Source: Prevotella sp.
GTDB lineage: Bacteria; Bacteroidota; Bacteroidia; Bacteroidales; Bacteroidaceae
Direction of reading: 5' to 3'
Assembly: GCA_017474515.1 (NCBI GenBank)
Contig: JAFVHN010000041.1
Coordinates: 1 to 64,000, forward strand
Length of the DNA stretch: 64,000 bases
Positions 45,847 to 49,128 of this stretch are shown here, one piece after another. Position 1 is the stretch's first letter, and the number at the start of each line of letters is the position of its first letter. The translations under genes and the position numbers were made by a program. The notes beneath the pieces were generated by a model. The model had not been told where the DNA came from. It saw only the letters and a list, made by a program, of their open reading frames with translations, and ran no database searches.

Positions 45847-46905
45847 TTAGAAGGCGGAAGCCTTGAGCCGCAGGCCGGCGGTTTCGTCCAATCCCGACAT
45901 GATGTTCATGTTCTGCACGGCCTGTCCCACGGCGCCCTTCAACAGGTTGTCGATGGCCGAGGTGATAAGGATTTTCCGTCCGAAAACATCTACGTGGACC
46001 AGGCATTTGTTGGTGTTCACCACCTGCTTCAGGTCCACGGGCCGGTCGCTGTAGTGTGTGAACGCCGCACCGTCGTAGAAATCCTTATAGGCTTTTATGA
46101 TGTCGTCGGCGCCCATCTCCTTTTCCATTGTCACCACCTCGGTGGCGAAGATGCCGCGTGCGAAGTCGCCGCGATAGGGTATGAAGTCGATGCTGGCCTC
46201 CAGGTGGCCCTGCACCTGCGTGAGCGACTGGCGAATTTCGGCCAAGTGCTGGTGGGTGAAGGGCTTATAGATGCTCATGTTGCCCATGCGCCACGAGAAA
46301 TGTGTGGTGGCCACGGGTTTCTGTCCGGCCCCCGTGCTGCCCGTTATGGCGTTCACGCTCACGTCGCGAGTGAGCAAACCCATTTGTGCGGCTGGCAGAA
46401 GGCCCAGTTGTATGCAGGTGGCAAAACATCCGGGGTTGGCCACATGCTGCGCCTGCGCGATGGCCGCTTTGTTCAGCTCGGGCAGACCGTAAACATAGTC
46501 GTGGGCGCCCTTGATGCGGAAGTCCTGTGCCAGGTCGATGATTTTCACCGACGGGGGAATGGTATGCTCCTTGAGGAAAGCCTCGCTCTTGCCGTGGCCA
46601 AAGCAGAAGAAGAGCACGTCGATGTCGTCGAAAGGCATTTCGTCGGTGAACCTTAATTCCGTTTCCCCGATAAGCCCTTCATGCACGTCGCTCACCAAAT
46701 TTCCGGCGTTGCTCTCGGAATTGGCAAACACAATCTCCGCCTCTGGGTGGTTAAGCAGCAGGCGGATGAGTTCGCCCCCCGTATAACCCGCGGCGCCAAG
46801 AATGCCGATTCGGAGCCCCCCTCTATCCCCCCAAGGGGGGGAAGTGCAAGTTCCGTTTGTGTGCGCGGAAAAGTGGGGAGAGTTGATGTTGTCGTTATTC
46901 ATCAA
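45847..46905 (-). CDS. argC: N-acetyl-gamma-glutamyl-phosphate reductase
   Basis: 352-aa NADPH enzyme, third step of arginine synthesis. Core begins at residue 31 (LRIGILGAAGYTGGELIRLL); catalytic Cys is in VANPGCFATC. The first ~30 residues (MMNNDNINSPHF...TSPPWGDRGG) are not part of the family. They are encoded by the DUF559 cassette end: 46814-46842 is its inverted repeat. The start codon thus lies inside the cassette and overlaps the DUF559 stop region. Any native ATG was lost or displaced; the enzyme can still be functional with a soluble N-terminal extension. Confidence 0.93.
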   Translation of the reverse strand: MMNNDNINSPHFSAHTNGTCTSPPWGDRGGLRIGILGAAGYTGGELIRLLLNHPEAEIVFANSESNAGNLVSDVHEGLIGETELRFTDEMPFDDIDVLFFCFGHGKSEAFLKEHTIPPSVKIIDLAQDFRIKGAHDYVYGLPELNKAAIAQAQHVANPGCFATCIQLGLLPAAQMGLLTRDVSVNAITGSTGAGQKPVATTHFSWRMGNMSIYKPFTHQHLAEIRQSLTQVQGHLEASIDFIPYRGDFARGIFATEVVTMEKEMGADDIIKAYKDFYDGAAFTHYSDRPVDLKQVVNTNKCLVHVDVFGRKILITSAIDNLLKGAVGQAVQNMNIMSGLDETAGLRLKASAF

Positions 46906-47302
46906 GTTGTTTTTTTATCGTGTTTAGAACTGTTTCCATGTCGCCAAGGACATTTTCATTCTTGAACCTTATTACTTTGTAGCCCTTGCTTGCCAGCCAA
47001 AGGCTTCTTGCCTCATCGTTGGCCTGTTGTTGAGGGAGCTGATGATAACCTCCGTCAAGTTCTATGACCAGTTTCTTGGAAAGGCAGACAAAGTCTGCGA
47101 TGTAGGGTCCAATGATGTGCTGTCTGCGAAAGTGTACACCCATCATATTTTCCCTCAGATACTTCCATAATGCCATCTCGGCAGGTGTGGACTTGGTCTT
47201 GTTTTCTTTGACAAACTCTTTCAGCAATCCATACAACGTTGGGTCGGAAGTGTAGAAGCCAGGCTTTACGTCATCCCCCCTTTGGGGGGACAGAGGGGGG
47301 CT
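46814..47302 (-). mobile_element. DUF559 cassette with ~29-bp terminal inverted repeats
   Basis: Left end 46814-46842 and right end 47274-47303 read, as inverted copies, AGCCCCCCTCTRTCCCCCC then AARGGGGGG, with about two mismatches. Together they enclose a single DUF559 gene. The cassette fits exactly between the argG stop codon and the argC coding region; the argG TAG overlaps the right end. No transposase is present, so movement would need trans factors or the nuclease itself. Confidence 0.75.
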
Positions 47303-47314
47303 ACCTCTTCTCAT
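46895..47314 (-). CDS. DUF559 endonuclease-like protein
   Basis: 139-aa protein (from MRRGSP; the start is uncertain because the frame is open further upstream into argG). Vsr-like/PD-(D/E)xK fold: TPAEMALWKYLRENMMG, FRRQHIIGPYIADFVC (catalytic Asp) and KLVIELDGGYH (Glu). The first ~17 residues (RGSPPLSPQRGDD...) come from the cassette inverted repeat. DUF559 proteins are widespread, with no agreed function. The 3' end overlaps the argC start by 11 bases. More AT-rich than argG and argC, in keeping with insertion. Confidence 0.85.
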   Translation of the reverse strand: MRRGSPPLSPQRGDDVKPGFYTSDPTLYGLLKEFVKENKTKSTPAEMALWKYLRENMMGVHFRRQHIIGPYIADFVCLSKKLVIELDGGYHQLPQQQANDEARSLWLASKGYKVIRFKNENVLGDMETVLNTIKKQLDE

Positions 47315-48506
47315 CCTTGTGTATTCCGTAGTACACCCTGAGTGGCGTGCTTGACACTTTGATGAAGCCCTTGGCCTCATCGGCGGTCCAGCCGGTCTGT
47401 GTCTCGCCGTACTCTCCGAGCTTGCTCCTGGTGAGGTCGTTGTCGCTCACGATGCCCACCGTTTCAAAACCGTAGGGGCGCAGCTTCAGGATGGCGGTGC
47501 CGGTGACGTTGCGTTGCGACGAGGTGAGCATGGCCTCCATGTCGGGCATCACCGGCTCCAGGTACTGGCTTTCGTGCAGGAACATGCCGTACCAGTTGGC
47601 CACCTGGTCCTTCCAGTACTGTTGCCACTTGCTGAGTGTTGACTTTTCGAGCAGGCGGTGCGCCTCGATGATGAGCTTCGGAGCCGCGGCCTCGAAGCCC
47701 ACGCGCCCTTTGATGCCGATGATGGTGTCGCCGACGTTGGCATCGCGGCCGATGGCGTAGGCGGCGCCGATTTCCTCAATCTTCTGGATGGCCTTCACCT
47801 TGTCGTCGAATTTCTCGCCGTTGACGGCGGCTATTTCTCCCTTCTCGAAGGTGATTTCCAGGCGTGTGTCCTCCTTGGCGGTGACATGCTTCAGGTAGGC
47901 TTCCTCGGGCAGCCCCTCTTCGGGGTTGAGCAGTTCGCCGCCGCAGATGCTTGTCCCCCAGATGCCCACGTTGTAGGAGTATTTCAGCTTGGCGAAGTCG
48001 GCCTTGAAGCCGTGGGCGTTCAGATAGTCCACCTCCTCCTTGCGCGTGAGTTTCTTGTCGCGTGTCAGGGTGATGATTTCCACGCCCGGCGCCATCACGA
48101 GGAACGTCATGTCGAAGCGTATCTGGTCGTTGCCGGCACCCGTGCTGCCGTGGGCGATGGCATCGGCGCCGATTTCCTTGGCATAGCGGGCAATGGCGAT
48201 GGCCTGGAAGATGCGTTCCGAGCTCACCGAGATGGGGTAGCAGTTATTGCGTAATACGTTGCCGAAAATCATGTATTTCAGCGACTTCTCATAATATTCC
48301 TGCGTTACGTCGAGCGTCACGTATGCCTTCGCTCCCAGCTTGTAGGCGTTTTCCTCGTTGGTTTTCAGCTGTTCGGGGCTGAAGCCTCCCGTGTTGGCGC
48401 ATGCGGCATAAACCTCATATCCCAGTTCTTTTGCAAGGTACATGACGGTGTACGACGTGTCGAGTCCGCCGCTGAATGCCACAACAACTTTTTTCTTTTG
48501 TTCCAT
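47301..48506 (-). CDS. argG: Argininosuccinate synthase
   Basis: 401-aa ATP-dependent ligase joining citrulline and aspartate. N-terminal PP-loop VVVAFSGGLDTSY, then AHGSTGAGNDQIRFD are diagnostic. I start at MEQKKK (48506), 13 bases after the GNAT gene; the longer frame runs into that gene. The stop codon TAG is formed at the edge of the DUF559 cassette, so the last residue or two could differ from the ancestral end. Confidence 0.97.
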   Translation of the reverse strand: MEQKKKVVVAFSGGLDTSYTVMYLAKELGYEVYAACANTGGFSPEQLKTNEENAYKLGAKAYVTLDVTQEYYEKSLKYMIFGNVLRNNCYPISVSSERIFQAIAIARYAKEIGADAIAHGSTGAGNDQIRFDMTFLVMAPGVEIITLTRDKKLTRKEEVDYLNAHGFKADFAKLKYSYNVGIWGTSICGGELLNPEEGLPEEAYLKHVTAKEDTRLEITFEKGEIAAVNGEKFDDKVKAIQKIEEIGAAYAIGRDANVGDTIIGIKGRVGFEAAAPKLIIEAHRLLEKSTLSKWQQYWKDQVANWYGMFLHESQYLEPVMPDMEAMLTSSQRNVTGTAILKLRPYGFETVGIVSDNDLTRSKLGEYGETQTGWTADEAKGFIKVSSTPLRVYYGIHKDEKR

Positions 48507-48519
48507 GTCTTTTTTCTTA

Positions 48520-49128
48520 TTATTTATTGTTCTTTTCTTTTTCCTCAAGAATGTGAATGCGACTCATCACCTCCTCCGGTATTTTTGCGGGCAGGTGCTC
48601 CTCGGGGTCGAAGAGCATGCCGGTGCAGATGCAGTATTTGCGGCCGGTGCGCTTCAGTATGTCCACGTTCACACATCCCTCGCACCCTTTCCAGAATGCC
48701 TCGTCGTCGGTGAGGTCGGCAAAGGTGACGGGCTTGTAGCCCAGCTGCGTGTTCATCTGCATGACGGCGGCGCCGCTGGTGAGCGAGAAAATCTTGGCCT
48801 TCGGCCAGCGCGTGCGGGCCAGCGTGAAGGTCATGTCCTTGATGCGTTTTGCCAGGTGCCGTCCGCGGTATTTGGGGTGAACGATGAGTCCCGACGTAGT
48901 GACGTACTCCTTGTTCCCCCAGGTCTCAATATAGCTGAAGCCGGCAAATTCGTCGCCGGCCAGCGCTATGACGGCCTTGGCCTCCTTGATTTTTGTCGTA
49001 AGGTATTCGTGTGTGCGCCGCGCAATGCCGGTCCCCCTTACTTTTGCCGCCTCGCTGATGGTGTCAAGAATGATGTCAACGTACTTCTCGTGCGTCTCGT
49101 CGGCCACCAACACTTTGATGTCTTCCAT
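48520..49128 (-). CDS. GNAT acetyltransferase, candidate N-acylglutamate synthase
   Basis: 202-aa GNAT-fold protein; acyl-CoA-binding motif VHPKYRGRHLAKRI near residues 83-96. No argA or argJ is present, and this position in Bacteroidales arginine clusters is held by a GNAT that I recall being reported, from mutant fitness data in B. thetaiotaomicron, as the N-acylglutamate synthase. A Cys-containing tail (EGCVNVDILK...KYCICTGMLFDPEEHL) beyond the GNAT core is unusual. It lies between argR and argG on the same strand. Confidence 0.8.
   Translation of the reverse strand: MEDIKVLVADETHEKYVDIILDTISEAAKVRGTGIARRTHEYLTTKIKEAKAVIALAGDEFAGFSYIETWGNKEYVTTSGLIVHPKYRGRHLAKRIKDMTFTLARTRWPKAKIFSLTSGAAVMQMNTQLGYKPVTFADLTDDEAFWKGCEGCVNVDILKRTGRKYCICTGMLFDPEEHLPAKIPEEVMSRIHILEEKEKNNK

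Follow-up and report, generated by a model that had tools for sequence, protein, structure and literature searches.

A DUF559 nuclease gene between REP-like hairpin ends at the argG/argC junction: possibly a new type of minimal selfish element

The argG/argC junction in the 64-kb window (the whole 64,000-nucleotide stretch of DNA that was analysed) poses a simple question: how does a lone nuclease gene framed by inverted repeats come to lie between two core genes, and could the nuclease itself be what spreads it? The source genome (G000; G and L numbers are our labels for genomes and loci) comprises 3.5 Mb in 118 contigs, is 88% complete, and holds one DUF559 gene. The cassette carrying that gene is 489 bp long (window 46814-47302) and sits at the argG/argC boundary, where all three genes share a strand:

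45847..46902, minus strand: argC, whose probable start codon falls within the element, overlapping the stop codon of DUF559
46814..46842, minus strand: right end (3' side of the nuclease gene), a C-rich head with a hairpin that repeats the left end in inverted form and gives ArgC its N-terminus, SPPWGDRGG
46895..47314, minus strand: DUF559 nuclease gene, 139 aa (PF04480, E 7.4e-33), with a probable start at 47314, an ATG overlapping the end of argG
47274..47302, minus strand: left end (5' side of the nuclease gene), a C-rich head with its hairpin, giving SPPLSPQRGD in frame should translation begin at the ATG at 47314
47301..48548, minus strand: argG, with its TAG stop at 47303-47301, two bases of it from the element

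The two ends, AGCCCCCCTCTATCCCCCCAAGGGGGGGA (46814-46842) and TCCCCCCTTTGGGGGGACAGAGGGGGGCT (47274-47302), form a 29-bp inverted repeat with 26/29 matches (score 23 with +1/-2 scoring), and each is built as a C-rich head followed by a hairpin. Only two C-rich hairpins in the window pass our test, and both are the cassette ends; a shuffled window gives one. The initial annotation had described a transposase-free cassette with inverted repeats of ~29 bp and the nuclease as its sole product, and this is borne out; a Pfam scan of the element gave DUF559 (PF04480) and no known transposase. It had also described a precise insertion at the junction that left both reading frames intact. The position stands, but both neighbours are altered: two bases of the argG stop TAG, its A and its G, come from the left end, and the argC ORF opens at ATG 46902 within the element, so that the right end is read through as part of ArgC. 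The TTG start of argG at 48548 is a mechanical ORF start, and an ATG further in is likelier.

The protein, also known as COG2852 or YcjD, is common in bacteria and has no role assigned to it. Profile searches match it to 3HRL, an 'endonuclease-like protein' (E 2e-32), and to 3R3P, a 'mobile intron protein' (E 8.4e-5) that we take to be I-Bth0305I, with a weak match to the Vsr model (E 0.0075) and weak PADLOC matches to 'HEase' (E 2.7e-7) and DpdF (E 1.6e-4). Judged by sequence, it belongs to the Vsr/PD-(D/E)XK group and not to the HUH enzymes, and PMC1189080 already assigns YcjD to the PD-(D/E)XK superfamily. All the invariant or near-invariant residues that we looked up in a 75-row alignment of relatives are present in the window's copy. 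The nuclease is under purifying selection: dN/dS was computable in 6/15 pairs, five of which gave 0.048-0.178 and one 0.70 with only four changes.

The initial annotation proposed that the translated ends would be recognisable in other genomes, and other DUF559 loci do share inverted ends. Our genus sample comprised 200 genomes, 121 of them with DUF559 in up to 8 copies each, from which we took 70 DUF559 loci (the 30 best-scoring and the next 40 in the search list) and scored each by the best ungapped inverted repeat between its 350-nt flanks, with a threshold of at least 15. The threshold was reached at 57/70 loci, against 0/975 random positions drawn on 39 of those loci (control maximum 13), and 13/70 scored below it. 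Of these 70 DUF559 loci, 58 have a C-rich hairpin within 300 bp on one side or both and 49 have one on each side, and such hairpins were found at 0/20 Y1-transposase loci of the genus, G000's own included.

The association extends well beyond the genus. A single scan across 22 NCBI phyla yielded 80 named DUF559 loci (2 of them unassigned to a phylum), of which 78 were usable and 2 lay too near a contig end. With the same 300-bp limit, 69/78 have a C-rich hairpin on one side or both, against 24/426 random positions in the same loci, and 47/78 have one on each side, against 5/426. A head of the form CCTCACCCC..AACCCCTCTCCC recurs in this genus, Methylococcus, Planktothrix and Sinorhizobium, and element length across DUF559 loci is about 406-871 nt with the DUF559 match inside. 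Covariation of hairpin pairs scored above shuffles but was weak, with one pair changed on both sides and a slid control equally high, and an Rfam search of DUF559 loci gave nothing above gathering scores, its low-threshold matches being to miRNA families only. A link to CGTC-type REPs was dropped, since the alpha-proteobacterial and Neisseria DUF559 loci inspected carry C-rich repeats instead. Sphingomonas plasmids carry DUF559 with C-rich hairpins at the sufB/sufC junction (L208, 1468-1878) and at the junction of a GatB/YqeY gene with dnaG (L205, 1318-1854), both once more boundaries of core genes. In a K. pneumoniae plasmid record (L294, ~2001-2264) the DUF559 gene is decayed and has a stop; its neighbours are cysP and a gene for a Dyp-type peroxidase, and C-rich hairpins follow downstream.

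Within the genus the elements occupy a limited set of core-gene junctions, several of them unrelated to one another. Going by their reading frames, we take these to be argG/argC, the position before argG, gmk, ispF, a 2-oxoacid oxidoreductase, an acyl-CoA dehydrogenase, etf and others. The alterations seen in the window recur elsewhere: in 43/56 elements the downstream ORF (100 codons or longer) begins within the element, against 29.9% of random stretches and 21/56 on the opposite strand, and an upstream ORF ends within 60 nt inside the element in 19/56, against 5.9% of random stretches. The nuclease forms a single reading frame with a host protein, joined through the element end, in the ispF group and two gmk cases, the fusion partners presumably being IspF-like (L047, L049, L051, L061, L135, L141, L142, L147, L152) and Gmk-like (L151, L170) from their motifs. 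Other Bacteroidota carry DUF559 with palindromic ends in frame inside large proteins (L174, L177, L181, L182, L185, L194), which we take to be LeuRS-like (L174, L177), HsdR-like (L181, L185, L194) and MetH-like (L182). The etf junction occurs in three states, with no insert (L144), with an end pair (L153, L169) and with a nuclease element (L164, L166). L156 and L160, from two close species, share a tandem array of ~39-bp repeat units, longer by two units in one than in the other.

A similar range of states exists at argG/argC itself. ArgC was found in 196/200 genomes, and 64 parsed loci gave 61 distinct junctions; one further DUF559-bearing genome, G181, lies outside the parsed set. By reading, 15 junctions hold a nuclease element, 5 an end pair without a nuclease, 2 a single end, 15 a minimal overlap of the two genes and 24 other spacers or genes, shares that are not unbiased because the junctions were picked to include DUF559-adjacent argC. 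In insert-free relatives argG and argC overlap, as in AGAGATGATAAAAGTAGG. The initial annotation had named two outcomes that would speak against it, a cassette present at argG/argC in all relatives and ends absent from other DUF559 loci; neither was found, as junctions without the cassette exist among relatives and the ends are present at other DUF559 loci. Among the 15 nuclease copies at argG/argC, identity is 47.7-88.6% for the element and 76.0-88.8% for the argG flank, and the two are correlated at rho 0.20, compared with 0.57 between one half of the argG flank and the other. This weak element-flank correlation suggests, on sequence comparison, replacement or repeated gain at the site. A single origin was not rejected by tree for the argG/argC copies (AU p 0.08) or for copies at the acyl-CoA dehydrogenase site (p 0.33), and the nuclease was more alike than the flanks in 1/105 argG/argC pairs. 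Other cargo is also seen at this junction. In L111, L117 and L128 (argG/argC of G023, G155 C22 and G179) a different gene lies between long AT-rich inverted ends of the GAAATTAGAATAATTAGAATAATT type, perhaps another inverted-ended cassette. In L066, L088, L108, L109, L110, L115, L118, L119 and L126 a short gene lies between argG and argC, its product presumably resembling a PspC-like domain protein.

The ends also occur without a nuclease gene. In G000 a loose end pattern (at most 3 mismatches) matches 83 times forward and 67 times in reverse, against 67 and 42 for a reversed control, so that the loose-pattern count alone is weak. By reading, the loci contain hairpins, which often form a pair with an inverted end of another kind, and from stretches picked on repeat-bearing contigs we gathered 49 distinct end copies. 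Past the hairpin, their majority sequence is AAGACGTACGGC, similar to that of the left end in the window, ATGACGTAAAGC. In E. coli, where the DUF559 gene is ycjD, the adjacent repeat, reminiscent to us of the 'Box C' repeat, occurs at a median of 19 places per genome. The ends are thus members of a dispersed REP-like repeat population. Since they are not private to the cassette, the spread of ends and the spread of the gene may be two processes.

Movement of the gene is best seen in one pair of species. At the acyl-CoA dehydrogenase junction of L144 and L153 (genomes G026 and G124), the elements differ by 10 mismatches in 567 nt (98.24% identity), while 484 other aligned windows of the same length reach at most 85.0%, with a median of 81.2%; a short cassette has therefore passed recently from one species to another by copying at this site. 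Immediately outside the element, identity over 50 nt is 96% and 90% on the two sides, the right flank is 92% identical from 50 to 100 nt, and identity then falls to ~82%. Short co-converted edges of this kind are what homing leaves. Such clear transfer was seen in 1/85 same-site pairs, and in most same-site pairs the nuclease is less alike than its flanks, the outcome expected of slow vertical descent. The window's own copy was not caught moving, and near-identical cassettes at different sites were not seen among 57 elements, the closest different-site proteins being ~0.27 apart. No crisp single-step empty site was found, as joined-flank alignments to other genomes were noisy and showed junction bases missing where a sharp insertion was sought, and a clean empty site was likewise not found on S. 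meliloti pSymB. Target site duplications were not obvious by eye in the elements inspected. The E. coli ycjD polymorphism (3365/5426 genomes match) was rejected as an empty site because an efflux operon stands there in the two lacking strains that we opened, and PMC12817139 describes such an operon in place of ycjD in strains lacking it.

The initial annotation had proposed a minimal homing-like selfish element. The relatedness to 3R3P and the homing-type transfer signature in one species pair lend that proposal partial support, while the notion that the ends belong to the cassette alone has to give way to the dispersed repeat population. With somewhat better than even confidence, we read the cassette as an autonomous, homing-like element of a bacteria-wide family that combines a DUF559 gene, REP-like hairpin ends, a putative capacity of the nuclease to recognise those ends and cut, and entrenchment at gene junctions. 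In such an element the nuclease would recognise its REP-like ends and nick or cut DNA at or near them, or at cassette-free junctions, and repair from a cassette-bearing copy would then install the element, which is to say that it would home. Ends alone, single or paired, would spread more often, as REP-like debris or as passengers. The elements take over the stop-to-start junction of core genes, where the downstream gene would rely on the element's start codon, and copies would persist because clean loss would be harmful to a gene that needs that codon.

The main rival is a RAYT-like, single-strand transposition, in which the nuclease would act on hairpins in single-stranded DNA at replication and excise or insert ends or whole elements, as TnpA-REP does, with no homing at all. 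Ends of head plus hairpin, inverted pairs and dispersed gene-less pairs do resemble REPs, REPINs and REPtrons, gene-bearing copies look stable while the repeats are many, and the lack of target duplications obvious by eye would also fit. We nonetheless consider this unlikely, as the protein falls by sequence in the Vsr/PD-(D/E)XK group and not among HUH enzymes, and the transfer between L144 and L153 took place at the same locus and left co-converted edges of the homing type.

A second rival holds that DUF559 is a passenger or a host gene, for instance a repair or restriction-like nuclease, with another enzyme moving the repeats. The distribution of nuclease and ends was compared with a covariance model of 23 DUF559 ends of one architecture that was run over the 200 genus genomes; the model is limited in this way because MAFFT misaligned ends with different loops, and other architectures are missed. 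Genomes with DUF559 hold a median of 24 end copies and those without it 0, in a count that ignores kinship, uses a model trained on DUF559 ends and has top values of at least ~33. At least 5 copies are found in 91/121 genomes with DUF559 and in 18/79 without, and the medians are 20 and 0 when two copies per DUF559 gene are subtracted and only strong hits are kept (kinship ignored in both). Y1 genes, present in 111/200 genomes, are associated with end copies at most at the border of significance (Fisher p 0.12, rank test p 0.050, rho 0.14). Exceptions occur both ways: 16 genomes with strong DUF559 have zero model copies, and 15 without strong DUF559 have at least 10. Among the 57 elements, end distance at different sites increases with protein distance (rho 0.25, with 6/2000 permutations as high), and ends within one genome are as far apart (0.417, 18 pairs) as ends from different genomes (0.421, 1488 pairs). 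The ends follow the nuclease and not the host, which is the pattern expected of enzyme-specific ends. The strong conservation of the nuclease would fit a host function, as would the weak PADLOC matches, and the genomes with repeats and no strong DUF559 hit would fit a different mobiliser. We still find a passenger or host gene quite improbable, given that the hairpins are missing from Y1-transposase loci (Y1 being the sole transposase control), that repeat copy number follows DUF559 and hardly Y1, and that the ends co-vary with the nuclease. It is very unlikely that the hairpins are instead RNA-level signals (terminators, mRNA stabilisers or attenuators) around a horizontally acquired gene, with no DNA mobility, for while strong GC hairpins within operons and Rfam matches confined to sub-threshold miRNA families would suit such signals, each side is an inverted copy of the other, the ends are translated inside ORFs, gene-less end pairs lie at the same junctions, and one whole cassette crossed species.

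The homing-like reading can be taken further, to a claim on which we are close to evenly divided: that a transposase-less superfamily of C-rich REPs, spread across bacteria and including the ~20-copy repeat beside E. coli ycjD, has its missing mobilisers in the DUF559 nucleases, and that these drive autonomous elements of a homing type, with a PD-(D/E)XK enzyme, entrenched at stop-to-start junctions of core genes. If this is true, the link between DUF559 and REPs would explain both a nuclease family without a role and some large REP families that PMC3733652 describes as lacking a transposase. It would add a second kind of REP-moving enzyme beside the RAYTs, and show that a homing-type nuclease can exist away from introns and inteins with hairpin ends of its own. 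It would also account for odd N-termini and in-frame insertions (PPLPPEGGAGG-like strings) in Bacteroidota core proteins. E. coli K-12 has ycjD together with the repeats, which opens the idea to a direct test in a laboratory strain.

How does such a cassette compare with known systems? It has a nuclease related to that of Vsr-like homing endonuclease genes (3R3P), and 1/85 same-site pairs clearly shows transfer to another species at the same site with short co-converted edges; it differs from them in lying outside any intron or intein, in its own inverted hairpin ends, in the many unrelated junctions that it occupies and in the dispersed gene-less copies of its ends. Terminal inverted repeats around one gene, with gene-less miniature forms at the same sites, recall MITEs and insertion sequences; unlike insertion sequences, the cassette holds no DDE, HUH, serine or tyrosine recombinase. 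By eye, target duplications are not evident. Rickettsia palindromic elements, which PMC3733652 also mentions, are palindromic DNA inserted in frame into proteins, whereas some of the insertions here have a nuclease gene inside. The closest parallel in layout is the REPtron (a RAYT, or TnpA-REP, of the Y1 HUH type with its REPs), in which, according to PMC3733652 and PMC6006769, a single small nuclease gene has inverted, hairpin-forming repeats on either side, gene-less copies and pairs are numerous in the genome, and some repeats lie inside genes. RAYTs with GTAG repeats are known (PMC3733652). The DUF559 enzyme is PD-(D/E)XK and not Y1 HUH, the Y1 genes of the genus are without these repeats, the heads are C-rich, and the GTAG tag next to the stem is absent from the 98 distinct ends that we read. 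CGTC-tagged and untagged REP families, for which PMC3733652 reports dispersed hairpins, often in head-to-head pairs, intragenic copies and, for CGTC repeats too, no dedicated transposase, are similar in all these respects, while the repeats here form a C-rich family. Our search of titles and abstracts, in which subscription papers are thinly covered, found no literature joining DUF559, COG2852 or YcjD to repeats or mobility. The cassette departs in a defining feature from each known class tested, and DUF559 cassettes may represent a new type of minimal selfish DNA.
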